DNA of 36,310 nucleotides from Candidatus Aminicenantota bacterium (GTDB taxonomy: Bacteria > Acidobacteriota > Aminicenantia > Aminicenantales > Aminicenantaceae), in contig JADHWO010000020.1 in assembly GCA_016783445.1 (NCBI GenBank), forward strand, positions 1 to 36,310. Reading direction: 5' to 3'. How positions within the stretch are numbered: position 1 is the stretch's first letter; the number at the start of each line of letters is the position of its first letter. Shown piece by piece: positions 144-27,871 of this stretch. Made by a program: the position numbers and the translations under genes. The notes below the pieces were generated by a model. It made no database searches, was not told the origin of the DNA, and was given only the letters and a program-made list of their open reading frames with translations.

Positions 144-279
144 TTTATATTTGTAGGGTTTTTTCTCGCTTCTTTTAAACGCCTCCTTTGCCAAACTTTC
201 CGTAAAGTTCGAACAATCCAATCTATTTGACAACCACTCTTATCATTTCTATAGTATAGGCTTAATTGAAGGAACAAAG

Positions 280-1902
280 ATGGAAAAGAGCAGGAATATC
301 AGGAATTTTCCCCTGGTAAATGCCATTAAAAGAGCCTATAAAGCCGGCCAGGAAGATGAGGCTTTAGAGCCGATTGTTGTCGTTGATCCTTCGGACAATC
401 CTCTGGGAAGGTTTAAAGATGGAGACTCGGTTATTTTTTATGACATACGGGGGGAGAGGGAAGCGGAAATAACCAGGAGTCTTATTGATCAAAATTTTAC
501 TCATTTCACCATAAATAAAGATCTTAAGCTGAATTTTGTGACCATGATTGAGTATGATTCCTCACTCGACGTAAAAGTAGCTTTTCCTTCGGATGGGGAA
601 ATTAAAAATACACTTGCTGAAGTTATTTCTAAGGCAGGGATTAACCTGCTTAAGATTTCTGAATCCGAAAAAGAGATCCATGTGGGTTTTTTTATGAACG
701 GAAAAAGTGAAAAAATCTTTCCAGGGGAGAAAAGGATAGTTATTCCATCACCGCAGGATGTTTCTTCTTATGCTCTTAAGCCAGAGATGAGTGCTGCTCA
801 GGTTACAGAAGAAATTTGCTCAAATCTTAAAAATCCTTCTTATCGGATAATAATAGCTAACCTGGCAAACGTGGATGTAGTGGGACATATCGAGGATAAA
901 GCTGCAGTGCTTCGGGCTGTGGAAGAAGTTGACCTCCAACTGGGAAAGATAATCGACAGTTGCCGCAACCTGGGTGTTGCTCTTGTTGTAACATCAGACC
1001 ATGGGACAGTAGAAGAATGGTTTTATCAGGAAGGGACGGTTAATACTGGACACACTAAGAATCCTGTCCCGTTTGTTCTGGCTGATTTTTCCTCTGAAGA
1101 TCCAAAGTGCTGGAGTTTTAAAAAAGAAGGGGAACTTGCCAATGTTGCTCCCACTATTTTGGCGTTATTGGGATTGACAAAGCCTCCGGAGATGACCGGA
1201 GAGAGCTTAATTCTTAATTTTCCCGAGGAAGAAGAAACAGAGAGAAAAGTGCTTCTTCTTATTCTGGATGGATGGGGAAAAAGAGAAGAAAAAGAAGGAA
1301 ATTTAATCACGGAAGCTAAGACTCCAAACTTTGATAAACTGTTGTCTTTTTATCCTCATGCCTTGCTCAAGGCTTCAGGAGAAGTTGTGGGAATGCCAGC
1401 CCAAACCGTGGGAAATTCAGAAGCCGGGCATCTCCACATTGGAGCTGGTAGGAGGGTCCTGCTTGACCGGGTCAGGATTGACAAAACTATAGAAGATGGA
1501 AGCTTTTTCCGTAATAATTCTTTTCTCTGGGCTATGGAGGAAGCAAAAAGAAACAATAAGTCGCTTCATCTTTTAGGAATTGTATCCAAATATAGTTCCC
1601 ACGGCACAATAAAGCATCTTTTGCCTTTGCTTCAATTAGCCAAAAAACTCGAGGTTGAGCAAGTCTTTATACATTCTTTGATCGGGCGAAGAGGGGAGAG
1701 GCCTGAAAGCGGGGCGGTTTATGTCTCCAAAGTCCAGGAAATGTGTTTGTCTCTTTCCATTGGTGAAGTTGTGACTGTTATGGGAAGATTCTGGGCCCTT
1801 GACAGGGAAGAGAACTGGGACAGAGTGGAAAAAGCTTACAGGGCATTAGTTTATGGAGAAGGGATTCCTGTTTCTTCCTTTAACGAGATAGGTATGATAT
1901 AA
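280..1902 (+). CDS. Circularly permuted 2,3-bisphosphoglycerate-independent phosphoglycerate mutase homolog
   Basis: 540 aa. Canonical C-terminal motifs come first: DGDSVIFYDIRGER, FVTMIEYD, VAFPSDGEIKNTLAEVISKAG, ESEKEIHVGFFMNG, PSPQDVSSYALKPEMSA, ANLANVDVVGH, TSDHG, NTGHTKNPVPF, APTILALLGL..PEMTGESL. Canonical N-terminal motifs follow: KVLLLILDGWGKREEKEGN, AKTPNFDKL, SGEVVGMPAQTVGNSEAGHLHIGAGR, GRFWALDREENWDRVEKAYRALVYGEG. Confidence 0.93.
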   Translation: MEKSRNIRNFPLVNAIKRAYKAGQEDEALEPIVVVDPSDNPLGRFKDGDSVIFYDIRGEREAEITRSLIDQNFTHFTINKDLKLNFVTMIEYDSSLDVKVAFPSDGEIKNTLAEVISKAGINLLKISESEKEIHVGFFMNGKSEKIFPGEKRIVIPSPQDVSSYALKPEMSAAQVTEEICSNLKNPSYRIIIANLANVDVVGHIEDKAAVLRAVEEVDLQLGKIIDSCRNLGVALVVTSDHGTVEEWFYQEGTVNTGHTKNPVPFVLADFSSEDPKCWSFKKEGELANVAPTILALLGLTKPPEMTGESLILNFPEEEETERKVLLLILDGWGKREEKEGNLITEAKTPNFDKLLSFYPHALLKASGEVVGMPAQTVGNSEAGHLHIGAGRRVLLDRVRIDKTIEDGSFFRNNSFLWAMEEAKRNNKSLHLLGIVSKYSSHGTIKHLLPLLQLAKKLEVEQVFIHSLIGRRGERPESGAVYVSKVQEMCLSLSIGEVVTVMGRFWALDREENWDRVEKAYRALVYGEGIPVSSFNEIGMI

Positions 1903-1980: not shown

Positions 1981-2889
1981 ATGAGTATTGAAGTTAAGGA
2001 TATCCATTTCAGCTACGGAAAGATAAAGGCTCTTGAAGGTATTACCCTTGATCTGTCTCAGGATGCAATTGGCCTTCTGGGACCAAACGGGGCAGGAAAA
2101 AGCACTCTGATTCGCATCCTCCTCGGATTTCTTTGTCCGGATAAGGGAGAGGGACGCATTCTTGATTATGATATTAAGCAACAGCAGTCCTTTATTCGGA
2201 GGTATGTGGGCTATATGCCAGAGGATGACTGTTTTATTCCTGAACTGGATGCTGTTTCATTTACTTCTTATCTTGGTGAATTATCAGGAATGCCGCGACA
2301 GGAAGCCATGAAAAGAGCACATGAAGCCCTTTTTTATGTTGGGCTTGAAGAAAGCCGCTACCGGAAAGTGGAGACATATTCCGGGGGAATGAAACAGAGG
2401 CTCAAACTGGCACAGGCGATTGTCCATGACCCAAAACTCATGTTTCTCGATGAGCCGACAAGCGGTTTAGACCCCCAGGGTAGAAACGAAATACTGGAAC
2501 TTATTGTGGATATTTCTTCAAAAAAAGGTATCCAAGTCTTGATTTCCTCTCATATCCTTCCCGATATAGAATTAACCTGTTCCTATGTCGTGATTTTAAA
2601 CAAAGGTAAACTTGCAGCACAGGGGGAAATCAGCAAGCTCAAGGAAATAAGAGACCTTTATGAGATTAAGATAAAAGGTGAATCAGAGGGCTTTCTTCAG
2701 AAGTTGAGAGACATAAAGTGTAGAGTGGAGAAAATGGAAGAGGGATTACTAAAGGTTTATTTGCCTCCAGATCAGGACAAACAGGAAATTTTCAGGATTG
2801 CTGCTGAAAAAAATGTGCAAATGAGACATTTTGTAAAAAGTGAGTCTTCTCTCGAGGACCTGTTTGCCAAAGTGGTGGGAGTGGATTGA
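1981..2889 (+). CDS. ABC transporter ATP-binding protein (ABC-2 exporter type)
   Basis: Walker A GPNGAGKST, signature YSGGMKQR, Walker B LMFLDEPTSGLDP, switch SSH. Confidence 0.96.
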   Translation: MSIEVKDIHFSYGKIKALEGITLDLSQDAIGLLGPNGAGKSTLIRILLGFLCPDKGEGRILDYDIKQQQSFIRRYVGYMPEDDCFIPELDAVSFTSYLGELSGMPRQEAMKRAHEALFYVGLEESRYRKVETYSGGMKQRLKLAQAIVHDPKLMFLDEPTSGLDPQGRNEILELIVDISSKKGIQVLISSHILPDIELTCSYVVILNKGKLAAQGEISKLKEIRDLYEIKIKGESEGFLQKLRDIKCRVEKMEEGLLKVYLPPDQDKQEIFRIAAEKNVQMRHFVKSESSLEDLFAKVVGVD

Positions 2890-3758
2890 TGACCATCAAA
2901 GAGAAAGGGTATGCACACTGGGATGGAGAATTCCTTGATAAAAAATTTCCCTGGTGGCCAATTACCCGGTACGGGATAAAATTAACTTTCAGGAGAAAAC
3001 AATTCAAGTTTATCTTTCCTTTGAGTCTTCTTCCTGCTGTATTTTTTCTGGCCGGGATTTATGTTTCAGAGAGGTTAGAGGATTTTCCCTTCTTCGGAAG
3101 AGAGACCGTAGAGTTTCTTCAGATCAATCCGAGCTATTTTAAAGCTTATTTAGCCTCCAGCTTTATGATTTTTTTAATTGTCATCATTGTGATTTTTTGC
3201 GGTTCAGGCCTAATCTGTGATGACCTCAAACATAATGCTCTCCAGCTTTATTTTTCCCGTCCTATCAAAAAAAAGGACTATTTTTTTGGGAAAACGGCTG
3301 TTATAGTTTTTTTTCTGTTCATTTTGACCCTCGTTCCTGGTCTTGTCTTTTTTATCATGAAACTCGTTTTCTCAGGAAGTTTTAAATTTTTTGTTTCCTA
3401 CCCCTGGCTTCCTCTCTCAATCATTGGCTATTCGGTTGTTGTGACAGCTTTTTTCTCCTTTTTTACACTTTTCCTTTCTTCTCTCAGCAAGAACAGAAGG
3501 TATGTGACGATTCTTATTTTTGGCACTTATATTCTTTCTGATATCTTTTACAGGATTTTTTATGATATTTTTAGTAATCATTATTTTTCGCTTCTTTCCT
3601 TAAGAGCCAATCTGCAGCAGGTGGGGGCGGTTTTTTTCAGCCAGAAGACACCGTATCCTATACATTGGATTTATTCTCTCTTGGTTCTTTCTGGCATTTG
3701 TGTTTTAGCTGGCTTTGTTTTGAAAAAGAAAGTTAAAGGCGTTGAAATAGTAAAATGA
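2886..3758 (+). CDS. ABC-2 type permease
   Basis: Multi-TM protein overlapping the upstream ATPase by ATGA; SGLICDDLKHNALQLYFSRPIKKKDYFFGK is typical of ABC-2 permeases. Confidence 0.9.
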   Translation: MMTIKEKGYAHWDGEFLDKKFPWWPITRYGIKLTFRRKQFKFIFPLSLLPAVFFLAGIYVSERLEDFPFFGRETVEFLQINPSYFKAYLASSFMIFLIVIIVIFCGSGLICDDLKHNALQLYFSRPIKKKDYFFGKTAVIVFFLFILTLVPGLVFFIMKLVFSGSFKFFVSYPWLPLSIIGYSVVVTAFFSFFTLFLSSLSKNRRYVTILIFGTYILSDIFYRIFYDIFSNHYFSLLSLRANLQQVGAVFFSQKTPYPIHWIYSLLVLSGICVLAGFVLKKKVKGVEIVK

Positions 3759-4681
3759 AAACAGTTATTGAGACAAAAAAGCTTTCTAAATGGTACGGGA
3801 ATGTATTGGGTTTGAGTGATGTCTCGCTCCAGATAGAAGCTGGGATTACAGGAATTCTGGGGCCAAACGGAGCTGGAAAATCAACTTTTTTAAAACTAAT
3901 AACCGGGCAAATAAAGCCAAATATCGGCAGCTGTACGATAGAAGGACAAAAAATCAGGAACAATTATCACTTCTATTCTAAAATTGGTTTTTGCCCGGAG
4001 CAGGATTCCTTTTATGAAGAAATGACAGGCTGGCAGTTTATGACCGGCCTTTTAAAGTTACACCATTATTCTCCATCTGAGATCAAAGCCATGACAAAAG
4101 AGGCTCTGGAGATTGTCGAGTTGACTGAGGATAAAGACAGGGTCATAAAGTCTTACAGCCGTGGTATGCGTCAGAGGTTAAAGTTTGCACAGGCCATAGC
4201 TCATAAACCAGAAATCATAGTTTTTGACGAGCCCTTAAATGGCCTGGATCCCCTTGGGAGACGGAAGATAATCCGCCTCATAAAATCCTATGAGGAAGAA
4301 GGGAAAACGATCCTTGTTTCCAGCCATGTTCTTCCTGAGATAGAAGCAATGACCAAACAGATTATTCTTATCCATCAGGGTAAAGTTTTTGCCCAGGGCG
4401 ATATACACTACATCAGAGACTTGATCGACACCCATCCTCATATTGTTTCGATTAAATGCAGAAATCCACGCCAGTTGGCTTCAACCTTCATCCAGGAAGA
4501 CTATGTATTAAATATTCATTTTGGCTCTGCAGACAACACTCTATTAATTGAAACCAACAACAGGGATAAGTTTTTCAGTCTCTTGCCTTCTCTTTTTGTA
4601 AAATACAATATCGAAGTGGATGAGATCACTTCGCCCGATGATAATCTGCAGGCTGTTTTTGATTACCTTGTAGAGAAGTGA
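3755..4681 (+). CDS. ABC transporter ATP-binding protein
   Basis: GPNGAGKST, SRGMRQRLKFAQAIAHKPEIIVFDEPLNGLDP; ATGA overlap with the preceding permease. Confidence 0.95.
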   Translation: MKTVIETKKLSKWYGNVLGLSDVSLQIEAGITGILGPNGAGKSTFLKLITGQIKPNIGSCTIEGQKIRNNYHFYSKIGFCPEQDSFYEEMTGWQFMTGLLKLHHYSPSEIKAMTKEALEIVELTEDKDRVIKSYSRGMRQRLKFAQAIAHKPEIIVFDEPLNGLDPLGRRKIIRLIKSYEEEGKTILVSSHVLPEIEAMTKQIILIHQGKVFAQGDIHYIRDLIDTHPHIVSIKCRNPRQLASTFIQEDYVLNIHFGSADNTLLIETNNRDKFFSLLPSLFVKYNIEVDEITSPDDNLQAVFDYLVEK

Positions 4682-4682
4682 G

Positions 4683-5495
4683 ATGAATAAAATAACTGTG
4701 AGAAGATTGCTGTTTTTATGGAATTCTATAAGAAAGGTTTATTCCTTTTTCTTCTTCATGGGGAAAAAATCGAATAAGACAAAGATTTTTTTCATAGTAG
4801 CTTTGTTACCAGTTATAATGGCGTTGATCATTAAATTAAATCCTATATTTTCTGGCCGGAGTAGCACCGAGGGAATTTATATTTTTTCCAACGTTATAAT
4901 TGTGTTCTATCTCCAGGCACTTATCCTTCTCCTGGCTCTTTTTTTCGGAACATCGGTCTGTTCGGAAGAAGTGGAGGGAAAAACGCTGACTTATCTAACC
5001 ACACGGCCGGTTTCAAAATCCGCCATCATACTTGGTAAGTACGCGGCTTATACATCTCTTGTTATACTGATGACTGGAATTGGAGTGACTATTTCGTTTT
5101 TAATCCTAAATGTGAACAAGTTGCATGATTTTTCCCTGTATGAAATTCTTATAAGAGATGTGATTGTTTTGAGTTTGGGGATTATGTGTTATACAGCGCT
5201 TTTTACATTTGTCGGAACTTTTTTAAAAAAATCGATTTTGTTCGGATTTGTTTTTGGCTTTGGCTGGGAAAATGTAATCCAGTATTTTCCCGGTTCAACT
5301 CAGCGCTTTTCCATTGTTCATTATCTCAAGTCACTGCTTCCGGTTCCAAAAACAGGGAGGTTTTCCTTTTTGATGTTCAAGTTGGAACCCAGTACTCCGG
5401 TCGCCGCGGTCTTTATGCTTTTTCTTATCACAGGCATTTTTCTTGGTTTAGCCTGCCTGTTTTTTTCTCTGAAAGATTATATTTTTGAAGATTAG
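4683..5495 (+). CDS. ABC-2 type permease
   Basis: Multi-TM; CSEEVEGKTLTYLTTRPVSKSAIILGKY motif; directly downstream of an ATPase. Confidence 0.9.
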   Translation: MNKITVRRLLFLWNSIRKVYSFFFFMGKKSNKTKIFFIVALLPVIMALIIKLNPIFSGRSSTEGIYIFSNVIIVFYLQALILLLALFFGTSVCSEEVEGKTLTYLTTRPVSKSAIILGKYAAYTSLVILMTGIGVTISFLILNVNKLHDFSLYEILIRDVIVLSLGIMCYTALFTFVGTFLKKSILFGFVFGFGWENVIQYFPGSTQRFSIVHYLKSLLPVPKTGRFSFLMFKLEPSTPVAAVFMLFLITGIFLGLACLFFSLKDYIFED

Positions 5496-5824: not shown

Positions 5825-6844
5825 TTATTTAATTTTTTCTTTGTCTTCCTCTGGTTTTCCGGTTGTTAACTTTTCAATAAGGGTTTTAGGAAGCTCTTCA
5901 GGAATGCTTGCATAGATTTTTACATGATCAGGTCCTGATGTGATCTCGATCTTGTCCAATAGTTCTGCCATGTTTAGATCCTGGACTTGAATCATAGCGC
6001 CCATGGCTTTAAATTGGTTTAAGGAATCTGCCATCTCCTGGTTTTTGACCTCATCGCTGCTCATGAGTTTTATTTCAGTATTGACGTTAGCGTTTTGGTA
6101 GTCAAAGTATATGGAAACAGCATTTACACTTTCAAACATACTGAGCATTTGGGCTTCCCCTTTGATCTCACTCATGGCTTTGGGGGGAATAACAGCACCT
6201 ATCCAGAACAGGGCTTTTTTATTGGTTTTTGCAAACAGGGCAGAAAATGCTTCGTCTTTTAAAATACCCTCTTCTTTTTTTTGAGAGACATTGATCACAG
6301 ATTTGACATTTTCCTTATTCCCTATGACAATGTTTGAGTCGTTGAGGAATACAAAACTTCCTTCCTCATCTTTTTCTTTATAATTGTAAATAGTAAATTC
6401 ATTGTAGTCTTCTTCTGTAAACTCTGTGTCTCCTTCTGATGTTTCTTTAATAAATGCGAGCAAAGAGTCTTTCTCGTATTTGAGGTTAATGATGCCGACT
6501 CCTTCTTGTTTATCTTTTTCCAGTTCGCCTGTTATAGCGCCAGCGATGAAATAAACATCCTTCTGCAGGTCAATTCCTGTTTTGTTTATGAATTCTTGGT
6601 AATCTGTAAGTTCCTTGAAAAACTCGCTATCTATATTTTTTTTGATAAGGTTGTCTACAATTTCAAGATTTATTGCTTTGTTAAAGTTGATAAAAAATAT
6701 GGCAAGTGCGTCTTTGGGGAGTAGACGGAGCATGTTATCAGCTTTAGCCTTTCCAGCACCTGGACCAGTGGACGTCATCTCGCAGGAAATAAAAGTGAAT
6801 AGGGCGAAGATAAAAACAATTACAAAAACAGTTAATTTTTTCAT
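5825..6844 (-). CDS. Putative lipoprotein of unknown function
   Basis: Signal peptide with lipobox-like MKKLTVFVIVFIFALFTFISC; 339 aa, DUF-like with 'LRLLPKDALAIFFINFNKA'. Confidence 0.8.
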   Translation of the reverse strand: MKKLTVFVIVFIFALFTFISCEMTSTGPGAGKAKADNMLRLLPKDALAIFFINFNKAINLEIVDNLIKKNIDSEFFKELTDYQEFINKTGIDLQKDVYFIAGAITGELEKDKQEGVGIINLKYEKDSLLAFIKETSEGDTEFTEEDYNEFTIYNYKEKDEEGSFVFLNDSNIVIGNKENVKSVINVSQKKEEGILKDEAFSALFAKTNKKALFWIGAVIPPKAMSEIKGEAQMLSMFESVNAVSIYFDYQNANVNTEIKLMSSDEVKNQEMADSLNQFKAMGAMIQVQDLNMAELLDKIEITSGPDHVKIYASIPEELPKTLIEKLTTGKPEEDKEKIK

Positions 6845-15752: not shown

Positions 15753-17738
15753 TTAAAATATGGGTTTTCCCCTGATCCCTTCGGGTTGATTTATTCTAAA
15801 AACCTTAAAGATTGTGGCTGTTACATCGTAAAGAGCAGGGGACTTGATCTTGGCGCTTTGGTTGGAGAGGAAAATTCCAGGAGTTACTTCTGGAGACACA
15901 CAGTGGTCGCCGCTCCATTTTTCTGTATTATCTTCAACGATCTTTTTGGGGATTCTGCCGAGAGGTGTACCCCAGGAACCGCGGTACCCGGAGTTATAGC
16001 CAACAATGATTTCCGGAGCTTTATTTATGTAAGGACCGTGAAAGACATCTTTAGTAACATATGCCCTTAAGACAGGTCTTTCACCTGTATCGGGATCTTT
16101 GAAGTTTTCCAGCTTCTGTGCGATTTCGCGAACAAGGGTTTCTTTTTCTGCTCCTGGTTTAACAATACCCTCGGCTTCTCTATCCTTTTGGTTTATGTAA
16201 AGGCTGTTTAAGCCCAGAGCATAGGCTTTTGTCTTTGACCAGTTGGTGTTTGTAAAAACAATGTTTTCACCCTGTTTCCATTTATTGATAAGAGAATGGT
16301 ACCCGCTTTCTTTGAGCCATGTATTAAGATTAAATTGGCGGCGAAATGATGTAAAACCATGGTCAGACATAACTATCAAGATTGTATCTTTGTCCGCCTT
16401 TTCCATGGCCTTGGCTAGTAGTTTGTCCGCCTCAATATAAATGTTTTCTATAGCGTTTCCGTATTTCGGGGCAAGTTTAGCGTCATAGGATGGACATTTT
16501 TTATCGATAAAACGCCAGAACATATGCTGCCGCTGGTCAGTGCTGGAAAGGTAGTAAAAAAGAATCCCGGAATCAAATCGCTCCAGTTCATAGTCAAACA
16601 TCTTTATTCTTTCTCTCAAAACTATATCGTCCTGGTCGAGAAATTCCCCATCATCCAGGATGCCGTGATCGAGCGCCTTAAAATCAGCAGGAAGGCCTTT
16701 TGTGTAAAATGACCCGAATTTTTCTACCAGTTCTTCTGAGTAATTTTTTGGAGTGGAAATTGGCAGGCAAGCATTTGCAGGATCTATGTTAACAGGCGAG
16801 ACATACAGCTTGAATTCAGGACGGACCTGTTTGAGGAAAAAATTGCAGATGCCGTTTACACTCCGGGTTGGAATCATGTTGAAGCGGACTTTTTTCCAGT
16901 TGCTCCATTCGCCTTCCTGAAGGATAAATTCTTGGTCCTGGATCACTATTTTGGCCACAGGATTTACTGGATCGATAAAAACTTTAAAGTTTATGTAGGA
17001 ATCCGGTCTGTCTTTTTTGAAAGAGTTGACCGGTCCAGGAAGTTTTGATTCCACTTGATTATCCATCACATAGACTTCGTGGATATTTGCTCCACCAATA
17101 TCTTCTTTAATTTCCGTAAATTCAGATGTGTAGTAGTTGCATGTGCCATAGGTTCCGAGTATGTCAGGCGTTCCCATCCCGGAAAGGGTTCTCTGTTTTG
17201 TCGGGACAGGAGGGTAATTGGAGGGCATTTTAAAAATTGTGGCTGGGATGTCATAATCTTCAAGTATTTGCCAGAAAGCTTTTCCCTTGAGAAGATTTTT
17301 AACATCTCCGCCTGAAAGGGGGAGAACAAGATTTCCGAAGGAGATTGTTTTTGTAGCTTCGCTTGTTTCAGATGCGGAAAATACAGGAAAGTAACGTTCT
17401 GGATCCCTGTGGATAAAGTCAAAGATGGCGTGGCCACCCGGGTCTGTTCCGGTTATAAAATTTGACCATGCGACAGGGCTCTGAGCTGGAATGCTTGACC
17501 TGAGTGGCAGGAAACTACCCTGGTTCCACAAACGTTTAAAATGAGGAAGTTTTCCTTCTTTCATCCAAATCTGGAGAAGATGGGGGTCCATGCCGTCAAG
17601 CCCCAGGATAATTAGTTTTTTATGAGTTTCCCTTTTTCCAGTTACTTTAGTAACAAGGTCGGAGCTGCTTCCTAAAGCCAGAAGTGAGCCTGAGGCTAAC
17701 CCTAATTTAATAAATTCTCTTCGTTTTATCGGTTTCAT
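15753..17738 (-). CDS. Alkaline-phosphatase-superfamily phosphodiesterase/nucleotide pyrophosphatase, TAT signal
   Basis: KRREFIKLG TAT-like signal, LIILGLDGMDPHLL, SPVAWSNFITGTDPGGHAIFDF, MSDHGFTSFRR, WSGDHCVSPEVTPGIFLS. Confidence 0.9.
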   Translation of the reverse strand: MKPIKRREFIKLGLASGSLLALGSSSDLVTKVTGKRETHKKLIILGLDGMDPHLLQIWMKEGKLPHFKRLWNQGSFLPLRSSIPAQSPVAWSNFITGTDPGGHAIFDFIHRDPERYFPVFSASETSEATKTISFGNLVLPLSGGDVKNLLKGKAFWQILEDYDIPATIFKMPSNYPPVPTKQRTLSGMGTPDILGTYGTCNYYTSEFTEIKEDIGGANIHEVYVMDNQVESKLPGPVNSFKKDRPDSYINFKVFIDPVNPVAKIVIQDQEFILQEGEWSNWKKVRFNMIPTRSVNGICNFFLKQVRPEFKLYVSPVNIDPANACLPISTPKNYSEELVEKFGSFYTKGLPADFKALDHGILDDGEFLDQDDIVLRERIKMFDYELERFDSGILFYYLSSTDQRQHMFWRFIDKKCPSYDAKLAPKYGNAIENIYIEADKLLAKAMEKADKDTILIVMSDHGFTSFRRQFNLNTWLKESGYHSLINKWKQGENIVFTNTNWSKTKAYALGLNSLYINQKDREAEGIVKPGAEKETLVREIAQKLENFKDPDTGERPVLRAYVTKDVFHGPYINKAPEIIVGYNSGYRGSWGTPLGRIPKKIVEDNTEKWSGDHCVSPEVTPGIFLSNQSAKIKSPALYDVTATIFKVFRINQPEGIRGKPIF

Positions 17739-19882
17739 TTCTTTTTCCCTTTTTCCTTTTTATTCTGATCTGAGGGAAGATTCTGGCCATCCAATAATGA
17801 GCGGCCATCCATGTGATATGGCACCTGGAGCCCGAATAATTCGAGTACTGTAGGTGCAATATCTATTATAGAAGGACTTGTTGTGTTAATTTTTTTGGTG
17901 CAGAAAAATATCCCTGGAACAACTTCAGGATCGATACAGTGATCTCCGCTCCAGGCTTTGATGTTGTCTTCAAACACAATTCCGTTAACTTTTCCTGTAA
18001 CTGAATCCCAGGAAATCCTGTATCCCTTGTTGTATCCGATTATAAGGTCAGGGCAGTTATTTATGTAAGGACCGGACGGAAGTTCGTCACGGTCAAAAAC
18101 TTTATTGATGGCCACTGTGTCCCTTTCTTCATCTTTTAGGCCAGTTAGTTTGTTTATAAGTTCTTTTTTTAAAGCTTCTGTTTTTTCGCCGGCTTGAACC
18201 GTTCCCTTTGCTTCCCTTCCTTTCTGGTTTATGTAGACTCCTCCAAGGCCCAGTGCGTATGCCTTGGTTCTTTCCCAGTCGACATCCTTAAACCATTCAT
18301 CGCTGTCTTTTTTTCCTTCCTTGAGGGATAGATAACCATTCAGATAAAACCAGGAGTTGATGTTTATGCCCCTGCGGAAGGATTTAAATCCATGGTCCGA
18401 CATAATCATCAGGTCAGATTTCTTTTCTAATTTTTCGAGGACCCTTCCTACAAGTTCATCCATTTTTTGATAGAGTTCTTCGATAACTTTGACGCCCATT
18501 TTTGTATGGTTTTTTTCCAGCGAAGGATTAGCTTTATCAAGATACCGCCAGAACATGTGCTGGATACTGTCTGTTGTTTCAAACACACAGGTAATTAAGC
18601 CCTTTTTTGTTTTATTTATGGCATTAAAGAGCATATTTTCCCATTCTTTGTGGTTTGAATAAGTCATTTCCAGAAAGGCTTTTTCGCTGAGCACTCCTTC
18701 GTTGAGCGCCCAGGTATCGTTTGCTTCTCCTAGTGTTATAAAACTTCCCAGGAGCTTTGCTAAATAGACAGAATAGTAAAATGGATTTGAAATGGGAAGA
18801 GCAGGTTTTTCCGGATCTATATTTAGCGGTGTACAGTACATCTCAAAATGGGGGTGGGTTTGAGAAACATAAAAACGACAGATCGCTTTAATTTTTATTC
18901 CCAGGCCTGGTCTGAATGTAAGTTTGATCCAGTCTGAGAAAGTCTCTTTTTTCATCACTATTTTTTGGCCGGAGACTTCCAGGAGAGCTTCCTCTTTTTC
19001 CTTATCGACGGTTATAATAAGAGGGAGCCTGATCTCCTCCTCTTTTTTTAGGAGGGTATTTTCCGGGCCCGATATATAGGTTTTTATTGTATTGCCATTT
19101 TTGTTCAGAGGAATAATTATTCCACTTTCTCTCTTTCTAATTTTCTCTTTATCGGTTGTGTAAAAGAAAAAGGTTCCCTGGCTTCCTTTTAAGTCCGGAG
19201 CACACATTCCGGAAAGAAGATGTCCTGAGAATTTTTCAGGAGGAAAAGTTAAAGGTACTCTCAGAATAGTGCAAAACACGCCCTTTTCGCCAAGAATTTT
19301 CCAGAAAGGTATACTTTTGCGCATTCCTTTGACTTCGGGTTTTGAGAGCGGAATATTGTATTTTCCTATAGAAAGAATTTTTCTTGGCTTTCCGATGCGG
19401 GCAGAGGAGAGGCCGGGAAGATAAGTCTTGGGGTCCCGGCTGAGAAAATCAAAGATGTTGTGTTTTGAAGGATTTGAACCCGTCATAAAAGAGGACCAGG
19501 CGACAGGGGAAATAGCCGGGGTTGTGGTTTGAAGCCTGGCATAAGCTCCTATATTTTTTATTTTTTTTAGATTTGGAAGTTTTCCTTCTGACATGTATTT
19601 CTCGGCTAGAGCAGGGTCCATTCCGTCCAGGCCGATGATGACCAGTTTGTTAATGCTGCTTTTCTTATAAGCCCTCTGTCCTTTTATAACCCGGAAAAGG
19701 AAACGAAAGGGCCAGGAAAGAAATGAAAACAAAGCCAGAAAAAGAGTGAGTAAAAGGATAAGAAAAGAAGAAAGAAAGGCAAAGCCTGCTCCCGGACCTA
19801 CATAAGCCTGGAGCGGGAGAGTAAGAGCAAGAAGTAGAAGAACAAGAATTGTAAATTTGTGAGTTTTAACAAAATGTTTCAT
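17735..19882 (-). CDS. Alkaline-phosphatase-superfamily phosphodiesterase/nucleotide pyrophosphatase, membrane-anchored
   Basis: N-terminal hydrophobic region (YVGPGAGFAFLSSFLILLLTLFL), LVIIGLDGMDPALA, SPVAWSSFMTGSNPSKHNIFDF, MSDHGFKSFRRG, WSGDHCIDPEVVPGIFF; 4-bp overlap with the next gene. Confidence 0.9.
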   Translation of the reverse strand: MKHFVKTHKFTILVLLLLALTLPLQAYVGPGAGFAFLSSFLILLLTLFLALFSFLSWPFRFLFRVIKGQRAYKKSSINKLVIIGLDGMDPALAEKYMSEGKLPNLKKIKNIGAYARLQTTTPAISPVAWSSFMTGSNPSKHNIFDFLSRDPKTYLPGLSSARIGKPRKILSIGKYNIPLSKPEVKGMRKSIPFWKILGEKGVFCTILRVPLTFPPEKFSGHLLSGMCAPDLKGSQGTFFFYTTDKEKIRKRESGIIIPLNKNGNTIKTYISGPENTLLKKEEEIRLPLIITVDKEKEEALLEVSGQKIVMKKETFSDWIKLTFRPGLGIKIKAICRFYVSQTHPHFEMYCTPLNIDPEKPALPISNPFYYSVYLAKLLGSFITLGEANDTWALNEGVLSEKAFLEMTYSNHKEWENMLFNAINKTKKGLITCVFETTDSIQHMFWRYLDKANPSLEKNHTKMGVKVIEELYQKMDELVGRVLEKLEKKSDLMIMSDHGFKSFRRGININSWFYLNGYLSLKEGKKDSDEWFKDVDWERTKAYALGLGGVYINQKGREAKGTVQAGEKTEALKKELINKLTGLKDEERDTVAINKVFDRDELPSGPYINNCPDLIIGYNKGYRISWDSVTGKVNGIVFEDNIKAWSGDHCIDPEVVPGIFFCTKKINTTSPSIIDIAPTVLELFGLQVPYHMDGRSLLDGQNLPSDQNKKEKGKKK

Positions 19883-19887
19883 AACGT

Positions 19888-21183
19888 TTAAATAAAATTG
19901 TTCAGGATTATCTCTGCTAGATCAGAGATGAAAAGGTCCTGTGATTGTTCTTCTTTTGCCCAGAAAAATGCATCATCCCATGTGTGCATTCCCTGCAGGT
20001 TTGAACGGCCGAAAACCTGCTTTTTCTTGACCGAACCTTTTATATCAAATCCGTACTCGGAGAGAACGATTAAATCCGGGCCTTTAGAAGTAAAAGGACC
20101 GGAATAAATTTCTTCAGCATCAAAGACCTGCCGGACAACTTTTTTCCCATTATATTCCAGTCTTCTTAGTTTATTGCTGATTTCTTCCTTTAAAGCCTTT
20201 ACTTCCGATTGTTCAACACAGCCTTGAGGGAATTTTTCTTTCAAGTTCAAGTAGATACGGTTGGGCTCCATAGTAAATGCTCTGGATGAGGGTAAGATCT
20301 CGGTTAGACTTTCGGGTGATGGACTGGTAAATCCCAGATAGCCTTCTTTCTCGAGCCAAACGTTAAGATAGATTTCTTGTTCGATCCCTGTAAATCCGTG
20401 GTCTGAAAGAAGATAGAGGCCATTTTCTTCATTTGATAGCTTCCGGAAAGACACCACGATTTTATTGATTAACTCGTCGATTTGTTTGTAGTAGTCAAGG
20501 AAGTTCTGGTGATAAAGGTGTTTTTCGTTTTTGTAGGCATCCCAGAGAAAGTGATGTAGTCTGTCAGTTCCGGTGAATACAAATTCAAAATAATCCCAGT
20601 CTTCCAGCCAGAATAGGTCCAGAGCCTTCTGACGCGTGTTCAGAGTTTTAGCAAGTTCTTTCCACAGGAATTCTTCGTTTTCCCTTGATTTGTGCGTATT
20701 TATGTCGATCTGGTATCTCATTTTTTCCAAGGGAGCCAGGCAGGAAAGAGGGTAGACAGCTTTAGAAAGTTCAATTGCTACAAAACCTGAAATTAGGGTT
20801 CCATAAATTTGGCGGGCCGGGTATGTGGAAGGCTGATTAATGATGATACATTTTTTTCTAAACTCTCCCAGCTTATCCCAGAAAGTTTCTTTTTTTAAAT
20901 CGAGAAAATTCGGAAAACGAAGTTCGTATGAGTCTTTTTTGAAGTCTGTAAAGCCAAAAATACCGTGTGAGCCGGGATTTGCTCCAGTCATAAAATTTGT
21001 CCAGCTTACAGCAGATATTTCCGGAAGGCTTGCTTTCATACGGTGAAGGTGTCCTGAATCGATAAGCCTTGAAGTTGATGCCATGACCCCTTTTTGGGCA
21101 AGGTCCAGAAGGAGAGAGTGGGGAACGCCATCAAGACCGATCACTAAAACTCTTTTTTTCCTCTTTTTTTTAAATAGAACCAT
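19888..21183 (-). CDS. Alkaline-phosphatase-superfamily phosphodiesterase, apparently cytosolic
   Basis: VLVIGLDGVPHSLL, SAVSWTNFMTGANPGSHGIFGF, LSDHGFTGIEQEIYLN; no obvious signal peptide. Confidence 0.88.
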   Translation of the reverse strand: MVLFKKKRKKRVLVIGLDGVPHSLLLDLAQKGVMASTSRLIDSGHLHRMKASLPEISAVSWTNFMTGANPGSHGIFGFTDFKKDSYELRFPNFLDLKKETFWDKLGEFRKKCIIINQPSTYPARQIYGTLISGFVAIELSKAVYPLSCLAPLEKMRYQIDINTHKSRENEEFLWKELAKTLNTRQKALDLFWLEDWDYFEFVFTGTDRLHHFLWDAYKNEKHLYHQNFLDYYKQIDELINKIVVSFRKLSNEENGLYLLSDHGFTGIEQEIYLNVWLEKEGYLGFTSPSPESLTEILPSSRAFTMEPNRIYLNLKEKFPQGCVEQSEVKALKEEISNKLRRLEYNGKKVVRQVFDAEEIYSGPFTSKGPDLIVLSEYGFDIKGSVKKKQVFGRSNLQGMHTWDDAFFWAKEEQSQDLFISDLAEIILNNFI

Positions 21184-24580: not shown

Positions 24581-27500
24581 ATGAAAACAAGAATATGGAT
24601 GAGTTTATTGAGCATTTTATTGTTGTTTTCCGTGATTTCTTATGCTTCGCAGGAAGCTCGTGTTCTTCGCTTCCCGGCTATTTACAAAAACCAGATTGTA
24701 TTCACTTATGCTGGTGACCTTTATACCGTATCCTCTTCAGGTGGAGTAGCCCGGAAGCTTACGAGCCACAAAGGATTCGAGGTTTTCCCCCGTTTTTCCC
24801 CGGATGGAAAATTTTTGGCTTTTACAGGCGAGTATGACGGAAACCGCGAAGTTTATATAATCCCAGGTAAAGGAGGAATGCCGAAGAGAATAACTTATAC
24901 TTCGACCCTTGGCCGTGACGATGTTTCTGATCGGATGGGACCGAATAATATTGTAATGACCTGGAAAAATGATAACAAGCATGTTGTTTTCCGTTCCAGG
25001 ATGCACGAATGGAATTCTTTTAACGGACAGTTGTATTTGGCTTCTGTTTATGGAGGAATCCCCGAGCAGATTCCTTTACCACGAGGAGGGTTTTGTTCAT
25101 TTTCCCCTGATGATAAGAAGTTGGCATATAATCGAATCTTTCGTGAATTCAGAACATGGAAGCGCTACCGCGGCGGCATGGCTGATGATATCTGGGTGTA
25201 TGATTTTGTTTCAAAGAAGATAGAAAATATCACCAATAATCCCGCCCAGGACATTATTCCCATGTGGAGCGGAAATAAAATATATTTCCTTTCAGACCGA
25301 GATGAAAATGAAAAGATGAATCTTTTTGTCTGTGACCTTACATCAAAAGAGACAAGGAAATTAACAAACTTTTCCGAGTTCGACATCAAGTTTCCTAGCC
25401 TTGGTCCAGAAGCTATTGTTTTTGAAAACGGCGGATTCATCTACCGATTTGACCTGGAAGAAGAAAAAACTGAGAAAGTCCCTGTAATTGTATCCAGTGA
25501 TATGCCTTCCAGCCGAGGCGGAATTAAAAAAGTTAATGAAAGAATAACAAATTATGAAATCTCACCTGATGGAAAACGGGCGTTATTTGGTGCACGTGGA
25601 GAAATTTTTACTGTTCCGGCCAAACATGGAAACACCCGCAACCTGACAAATACCTCTGGGATTCATGAACGCAGCTCAAAATGGTCTCCTGATGGGAAAT
25701 GGATTGCCTATATTTCAGATTCCACAGGTGAGGATGAGATCTATATCATGAAACAGGATGGTTCAGGGACACCTCAGCAGATCACAACCGGAGCAGATAC
25801 TTACAAATATCAGATTTATTGGTCTCCGGATTCAAAAAAAATTCTCTGGGGCGATAAGCTTTTACGTCTCAATTATGTAAATATTGAGACAAAGAAGGTT
25901 GTAGAAGTTACTAAGGCAACACGCTGGGAAATAAGAAATTATGTCTGGTCTCCGGACAGCAACTGGATAGCCTATGCAAAACCCGAGGCAGTGGCTATGA
26001 CAAAAGTCTACCTTTACAACAACAAAACGAAAAAAAACTATGAGGTTACAGACGGCTGGTACTCATCCTATTCAGCTTCCTTTAGTTCGGATGGAAAATA
26101 TCTATTTTTTGTATCAGATAGGGATTTCAGTCCTATTTATAGCAGTACAGAGTGGAATCATGCTTATCTCTCCATGGCAAGAATCTACCTGGTAACTCTT
26201 ACAAAGGATGTAAAGTCTCCCTTTGAACCAAAAAGTGATGAGGTTACTTTAAAGAAAGAAAGCGAAAAGAAGGAGGAAAAACCAGATGAAAAGGTAAAAA
26301 AGGAAAGTAAAGAAGAAGAAGAAAAAAAAGAAAAACCAATAAAAGTCGATACGGATGGACTTAAAGACCGCACAGTTGGCTTACCCATTGCAGTGGCTAA
26401 TTATGGGAATATCACTTCTGTTAGTGAAAAAATCTACTACATGACAAGAGGGAACCTGGAAAGAAAGTCTTCCTTAAAGATGTATGACCTGAAAGAGCAG
26501 AAGGAAACAAATCTTGGAAATATAAATGGTTATGAGATCTCACACGATCAAAAGAAGATGCTTGTTTCTAAACAGGGAACATACGCTATCATTAACCTTC
26601 CAAAAGCTCCGGTAGAGATTAAAGATAAGCTGAATTTAGAGAATATGGAAACAAAAGTTAACCTAAAAGAGGAGTGGAACCAGATTTTTAACGAGTGCTG
26701 GAGGCAGATGAAATATTTCTTCTATGCTCCAAATATGCACGGTGTGGACTGGGAAGCAATGAAGAAGCTTTATAAACCTCTAGCCGAGGCTGTAAACCAC
26801 CGGGCAGATTTAACCTATGTAATCGGTGAAATGATAGGGGAATTAAATGTTGGCCATACTTATGTGGGTGGCGGTGATGTTCCCAGGGTGGAAAGAATCA
26901 ATATTGGAAAACTTGGTGCCCAGTTTAAGAGAGATCCCAAATCTCACTATTATAAAATCACAAAAATCTTGAAAGGTCAGAACTGGAAGAGTTCCCTCCG
27001 TTCCCCGCTGACCGAAATAGGTATTAACGTAAAAGAAGGCGATTATCTTATTGCTCTTAATGGAAAACCAACAAACACTATGACTGATATGTATGAAGCT
27101 CTTCTTAATACTGTAGGGAAGCAGGTGAGACTTTGTGTGAATTCAAAGCCCGAAGAGAAAGGAAGCCGGGAAGTTGTAGTTGTCCCTGTAAGAGATGAAC
27201 TGTCCCTTTATTATTATAACTGGGTTCAAAGTAATATGGAGAAGGTTAACAAGGCGACAAAGGGAAAAGTTGGGTATATCCATGTCCCGGATATGGGCGC
27301 TGAAGGTTTAAATGAGTTTGTCAGGCAATTTTATCCCCAGCTTCAGAAAAAAGCTCTCATAATCGATGTGCGCGGTAATGGCGGTGGGAATGTATCTCCT
27401 ATGCTAATAGAACGGTTGAGGCGGGAGATAACAATGGTAGGTGTGGCACGGAATACAATCCCTGGACCTGATCCTGATGCTGTTTTGATGGGGCCTAAAG

Positions 27501-27871
27501 TCTGCTTGATGGATGAATTCTCTGCATCAGATGGAGATATCTTTCCCTATCGTTTTAAAAAGCATAAGCTTGGAAAACTGATCGGGAAGCGTACCTGGGG
27601 AGGAGTTGTGGGCATTCGAGGCTCTTTACCACTGATTGACGGTGGTTATATCTTTAAGCCTGAATTTGCAACATATGGAGTTGATGAGAAGGATTGGATT
27701 ATTGAAGGGAAGGGTGTTAAACCGGATATTTATGTTGATAATGACCCGGCTAAAGAATATGCAGGAATTGATGAACAACTGAATAAAGCTATAGAAGTTA
27801 TCCTTGAAGAGTTGAAGACAAAAGAAAAAGTGCTGCCGAAGATTCCTCCTTATCCGAAGAAGAAAAAATAG
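24581..27871 (+). CDS. Secreted tricorn-like protease (beta-propellers, PDZ, S41 domain)
   Basis: Signal peptide; WSPDGKWIAYISDSTGEDEIYI propeller repeats; GHTYVGGGD (His) and MDEFSASDGDIFPYRFK (Ser) catalytic regions; PDZ-like GDYLIALNGKPTNTM; GGAGG-type RBS. Confidence 0.94.
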   Translation: MKTRIWMSLLSILLLFSVISYASQEARVLRFPAIYKNQIVFTYAGDLYTVSSSGGVARKLTSHKGFEVFPRFSPDGKFLAFTGEYDGNREVYIIPGKGGMPKRITYTSTLGRDDVSDRMGPNNIVMTWKNDNKHVVFRSRMHEWNSFNGQLYLASVYGGIPEQIPLPRGGFCSFSPDDKKLAYNRIFREFRTWKRYRGGMADDIWVYDFVSKKIENITNNPAQDIIPMWSGNKIYFLSDRDENEKMNLFVCDLTSKETRKLTNFSEFDIKFPSLGPEAIVFENGGFIYRFDLEEEKTEKVPVIVSSDMPSSRGGIKKVNERITNYEISPDGKRALFGARGEIFTVPAKHGNTRNLTNTSGIHERSSKWSPDGKWIAYISDSTGEDEIYIMKQDGSGTPQQITTGADTYKYQIYWSPDSKKILWGDKLLRLNYVNIETKKVVEVTKATRWEIRNYVWSPDSNWIAYAKPEAVAMTKVYLYNNKTKKNYEVTDGWYSSYSASFSSDGKYLFFVSDRDFSPIYSSTEWNHAYLSMARIYLVTLTKDVKSPFEPKSDEVTLKKESEKKEEKPDEKVKKESKEEEEKKEKPIKVDTDGLKDRTVGLPIAVANYGNITSVSEKIYYMTRGNLERKSSLKMYDLKEQKETNLGNINGYEISHDQKKMLVSKQGTYAIINLPKAPVEIKDKLNLENMETKVNLKEEWNQIFNECWRQMKYFFYAPNMHGVDWEAMKKLYKPLAEAVNHRADLTYVIGEMIGELNVGHTYVGGGDVPRVERINIGKLGAQFKRDPKSHYYKITKILKGQNWKSSLRSPLTEIGINVKEGDYLIALNGKPTNTMTDMYEALLNTVGKQVRLCVNSKPEEKGSREVVVVPVRDELSLYYYNWVQSNMEKVNKATKGKVGYIHVPDMGAEGLNEFVRQFYPQLQKKALIIDVRGNGGGNVSPMLIERLRREITMVGVARNTIPGPDPDAVLMGPKVCLMDEFSASDGDIFPYRFKKHKLGKLIGKRTWGGVVGIRGSLPLIDGGYIFKPEFATYGVDEKDWIIEGKGVKPDIYVDNDPAKEYAGIDEQLNKAIEVILEELKTKEKVLPKIPPYPKKKK

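Follow-up and report, generated by a model that had tools for sequence, protein, structure and literature searches.

A circularly permuted branch of the cofactor-independent phosphoglycerate mutase family with a rewritten substrate pocket in Aminicenantes and other phyla

Bacterial cofactor-independent phosphoglycerate mutase (iPGM, GpmI; profile TIGR01307, structures 1EJJ, 1O98 and 4MY4) is recognized by the domain order phosphatase part, transferase domain, phosphatase part, and nine of its residues contact phosphoglycerate, namely S62, H123, R153, D154, R185, R191, R261, R264 and K336 (PMC3886921). The archaeal-type enzyme (apgM; TIGR00306/NF003160) belongs with it to the alkaline-phosphatase superfamily. 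Phosphopentomutase DeoB and the phosphonoformyl transferase PhpG illustrate that this superfamily switches substrate on a common metal and phosphoryl-transfer core. Natural circular permutation of a metabolic enzyme is known from eukaryotic glutathione synthetase (PMC2876114), whose fold is unrelated. In the open-licence PMC papers searched, no description of a permuted iPGM was found, and the branch of the iPGM family described here is apparently undescribed so far.

The window analyzed is the whole of a 36,310-nucleotide contig (JADHWO010000020.1) from a Candidatus Aminicenantota genome, and its positions 1-142 hold the tail of an upstream reading frame truncated by the contig start. The next gene (Table 1) had been read in the first-pass annotation as one uninterrupted frame in which the second half of iPGM precedes the first, and both points were borne out. 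The frame is complete, and the protein scores 500.3 bits against TIGR01307 (cut-off 330.65) as two swapped stretches, with residues 13-311 matching profile positions 214-504 and the stretch encoded at window 1246-1875 matching profile positions 2-211. The same swap was obtained with the Bacillus stearothermophilus iPGM 1EJJ, on which residues 321-528 align to 3-210 and residues 14-312 to 218-510 (whole-chain E 5e-117). Overall, residues ~13-312 constitute the second half of iPGM and residues ~321-530 the first half, an arrangement that departs from the canonical domain order by circular permutation. Once rotated, it shares 45% identity over 505 positions, a level far beyond chance, with a canonical iPGM from another genome of the Acidobacteriota phylum (L101). 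Its match to the archaeal-type profile TIGR00306 is weak and partial (36.9 bits versus a cut-off of 320), and DeoB and PhpG, which have the canonical order, show only weak local similarity to it.

Table 1. Coordinates of the permuted gene, its parts and its flanking features in the window.
Feature	Position	Strand	Basis or remark
Sigma-70-like promoter, TTGACA-17-TATAGT	227..255	+	Pattern only, 11/12 matching; ~3 promoter-like patterns expected by chance in the region
Candidate ribosome site, AAGGA	269-273	+	Sequence pattern
Circularly permuted iPGM homologue gene, 540 aa	280..1902	+	Reading frame, profile and PDB matches, relatives
Stretch matching canonical iPGM residues ~214-504	316..1212	+	TIGR01307 match; transferase domain (remainder) followed by phosphatase domain (C-terminal part)
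Pocket motif DIRGERE, residues 55-61 (canonical NFRADRA)	442..462	+	Rotated alignment; R57/R60 retained
Phosphatase domain, unbroken, residues ~107-394	598..1461	+	Mapped by alignment
Linker, residues ~313-322, canonical C-terminus to canonical N-terminus	1216..1245	+	1EJJ alignment, homologue set
Segment equal to canonical residues ~2-211	1246..1875	+	TIGR01307 match; N-terminal part of phosphatase domain, then initial part of transferase domain
Ser380 codon, equal to nucleophile Ser62	1417..1419	+	Rotated alignment
Pocket motif KYSSHG, residues 437-442 (canonical DGGVHS)	1588..1605	+	Rotated alignment; H441 = H123 retained
Pocket motif GRRGERPESG, residues 469-478 (canonical DGRDTPPxSG)	1684..1713	+	Rotated alignment; D151 to G, G152 to R, D154 to G; R471 = R153 retained
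ABC transporter genes: ATPase, permease, ATPase, permease	1981..5495	+	Downstream of permuted gene

Across the homologues, the new ends all lie at one place, with the C-terminus a few residues past YGEG (median tail 7 residues) and the N-terminus directly ahead of the AxxxAYxxG helix; in a model of a canonical control, this site falls between a strand (211-213) and a helix (216-225). The old ends are connected by about ten residues. Taking the transferase domain of the Bacillus enzyme to span residues 77-310, limits that we assume here, the domain nesting is the reverse of that in canonical iPGM: an unbroken phosphatase domain sits inside a transferase domain whose two parts lie at either end of the chain. 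The branch would have arisen once by circular permutation, through fusion of the old N- and C-termini via the linker of about ten residues and opening of new ends in the turn after the strand that follows YGEG, in the transferase domain. The route was probably tandem duplication, fusion and trimming; no intermediate of such a route was seen among the sequences collected.

Structure prediction, which had been proposed as a check, returned a confident model. An AlphaFold2 model built from 50 permuted sequences reached a pLDDT of 88.8 and a pTM of 0.84, and Foldseek, which aligns in sequence order, gave 22 significant matches in the PDB, all of them iPGMs and all of half length only (~240-330 columns, TM ~0.4-0.5), as against ~510 columns and TM up to 0.95 for the canonical control (pLDDT 94.8). 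When the secondary structure was rotated, 471 of 505 positions (93%) agreed with the control; shifted nulls averaged 37% and reached at most 45%. The chain is therefore predicted still to fold as an iPGM.

All 66 distinct homologues collected share this order; they come from Acidobacteriota, chiefly Aminicenantia, and from Desulfobacterota-type and other metagenome-assembled genomes (MAGs). About 50 of 60 relatives carry the gene, mostly as one full-length frame of 56-77% identity with a few contig-end fragments, and two of these carriers are single-contig assemblies of 4.4 Mb. It also occurs in other classes of the same phylum and in MAGs labelled, as deposited, Deltaproteobacteria, Armatimonadetes, Gemmatimonadetes, Zixibacteria and Methanomassiliicoccales, the last being a 3.2-Mb chromosome. 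The anticipated search for this order in related genomes was thus positive. The examples checked come almost all from MAGs, a point in favor of an assembly artefact, chimera or pseudogene; against it stand the strict residue conservation and the identical junctions in dozens of independent assemblies, including the single-contig G012, G024 and CP070739.1, so that an artefact is rejected and its probability is negligible. We regard the circular permutation itself as virtually certain.

In a quick tree (SH-aLRT support only), a single branch of support 100 and stem length 0.93 divides the permuted from the canonical sequences, and no well-supported canonical sister of the permuted clade was found. 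The canonical sequences fetched were likewise searched for an ancestor of canonical order that already had the rewritten pocket, and none was found. Outside Aminicenantia the occurrence is patchy (15 of 297 genomes in the phylum of L026 and 1 of 134 in that of L029), which suggests lateral transfer. Carriage by phages or plasmids was considered and rejected: among the matches listed, the best were ~40% identical and, like canonical iPGMs, aligned in two separate pieces, and no permuted homologue was found in viral contigs. One genome of the same phylum (G243, 99% complete) contains both a canonical and a permuted iPGM (L112, L113).

Most of the active site is retained in permuted order. Every residue equivalence offered by the first-pass annotation holds in the rotated alignment, that is, R57/R60 for R261/R264, D199/H203 for D403/H407, D240/H241 for D444/H445, H258 for H462, D330 for D12, S380 for S62, H441 for H123, R471 for R153 and R503/R509 for R185/R191. 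Survival of both metal sites and of the nucleophilic serine, as it had claimed, extends to all 54 aligned permuted sequences (D12, S62, D403, H407, D444, H445 and H462), in which H123, R153, R185, R191, R261, R264 and K336 are also invariant. Eight of the nine phosphoglycerate-contacting residues are accordingly kept in 54/54; the ninth, D154, is replaced in every one. The annotation had overlooked this loss (G472 in the present protein; a one-residue alignment shift would place R471 there instead, and aspartate is absent either way). D151, G152 and D154 are replaced in 54/54 permuted sequences and retained in 26/26 canonical ones. Near-absolute differences between the two classes cluster in the pocket (V122S, D151G, G152R, D154G, D263E and N447T), with L116I, M404V and G409E as further ones and GG120-121 to [YF]S, A265E and Y337A as less strict ones. 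At family level, DGRDTPP has become GRRGEKPES and NFRADR has become DIRGERE, and E473 and E476 are invariant in the alignment (A1).

Also overlooked was a second PGM in the same genome, a full apgM (G000:C23:22043-23161; NF003160 553 bits, cut-off 468). Among the 50 relatives with the permuted gene, this genome included, 42 have a full apgM, 2 have fragments, 2 have a dPGM instead and 4 have no other PGM by the three models searched; completeness is 70-88% in these four, and ~6.5 misses would be expected from incompleteness alone. All 22 carrier relatives that are at least 90% complete possess apgM, and eight genomes of at least 90% completeness possess apgM and lack the permuted gene. In 23 other carriers, 21 apgM, 5 canonical iPGM (one in G243, which lacks apgM) and 5 dPGM were found, giving a second PGM in 22 of 23; G297 was the only one with no other PGM by the three models. 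The near-universal presence of another PGM implies that the permuted enzyme is seldom, if at all, the only PGM of its host, and we take this co-occurrence as supportive rather than decisive evidence on function. G020 and G030, of genus g21, lack apgM and carry a full dPGM (~400 bits), as if PGM types had been exchanged.

The gene neighborhoods vary between phyla and gave no metabolic partner or substrate clue. The ABC transporter genes are conserved neighbors in Aminicenantes and not in other phyla, and indicate no pathway; operon context was therefore set aside as a guide to substrate, and these genes are probably not functionally linked to the permuted gene. Some loci of other phyla contain genes resembling, by the look of their sequences, pcm, NlpD/M23 and macro-domain genes. 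Further along the window, positions 5825-6844 (- strand) encode a 339-aa predicted lipoprotein-like protein without Pfam match. Its homologues follow the ABC genes in 23 loci, and one of them (L003) has a long Glu-rich stretch. Three adjoining type I phosphodiesterase genes (PF01663), within the iPGM superfamily, occupy 15753-21183 (- strand), and a homologue of tricorn protease that combines beta-propeller, C1, PDZ and S41 domains is encoded at 24581-27871 (+ strand).

The first-pass designation as a natural circular permutant of iPGM thus stands in its first part, on sequence, phylogeny, distribution and predicted structure. Identity as a phosphoglycerate mutase is less secure, given the replaced D154, the rewritten pocket and the other PGM that hosts almost always have; the protein is an iPGM homologue that would work like an iPGM and is not to be filed as a confirmed mutase. 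Loss of D154 together with the rewriting of the adjacent pocket makes a shift in substrate or acceptor chemistry most likely, a reading we hold with moderate confidence, and hosts that nearly always have another PGM argue that this is probably not the housekeeping mutase. Judged from sequence, it is probably a metal- and phosphoserine-dependent phosphotransferase of shifted substrate or chemistry. It would most likely follow the two-step iPGM route, in which Ser380, activated at the two-metal site, would take over the phosphoryl group of a small phosphorylated acid bound through the conserved arginines and K131, and would transfer it to a hydroxyl, the glycolytic job being left to aPGM (or dPGM or canonical iPGM). 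We consider this whole explanation, a permuted iPGM-family branch with iPGM-like fold and route and a shifted substrate or chemistry, rather probable.

Its main rival is that the protein, although permuted, is an ordinary redundant PGM in which a nearby acid replaces D154; E473, E59 or E61 could provide such a carboxylate. The invariance of both metal sites and of eight substrate residues, the TIGR01307 score well over its cut-off and the existence of a carrier without any other PGM (G297) are in keeping with this, as is known bacterial PGM redundancy, E. coli having two active PGMs (PMC2964296); a second PGM in the host is hence compatible with PGM activity of the permuted protein. Yet D154 and its neighbors are replaced in every member and retained in canonical relatives, apgM is present in each of the most complete carrier relatives, and two relatives without apgM have a dPGM despite the permuted gene, which leaves redundancy the less likely reading. 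Loss of transfer to a second hydroxyl, leaving an enzyme that mostly dephosphorylates small phosphorylated acids, would fit the intact phosphatase site beside an altered transferase-side pocket; a plain phosphatase would have no obvious need for the strictly conserved transferase-domain arginines and K131, and we hold this reading unlikely. Whether the shifted phosphotransferase amounts to a new multi-phylum enzyme family under the GpmI name, combining permutation and inverted nesting with a pocket rewrite and a novel reaction that uses a different phosphorylated metabolite, we judge evenly balanced.

Relative to bacterial iPGM, then, the permuted proteins combine full-length homology with swapped halves, replaced pocket motifs and a clade of their own. 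Automatic annotation would name them GpmI, so that, when glycolysis is reconstructed for Aminicenantes and comparable bacteria, these proteins may be credited with a reaction that they perhaps do not perform. If real as argued, the branch is a natural permutant of a central-metabolism enzyme family, with domain-in-domain nesting turned inside out and kept across phyla, and would serve as a natural test of how much permutation an enzyme's fold and catalysis can withstand.
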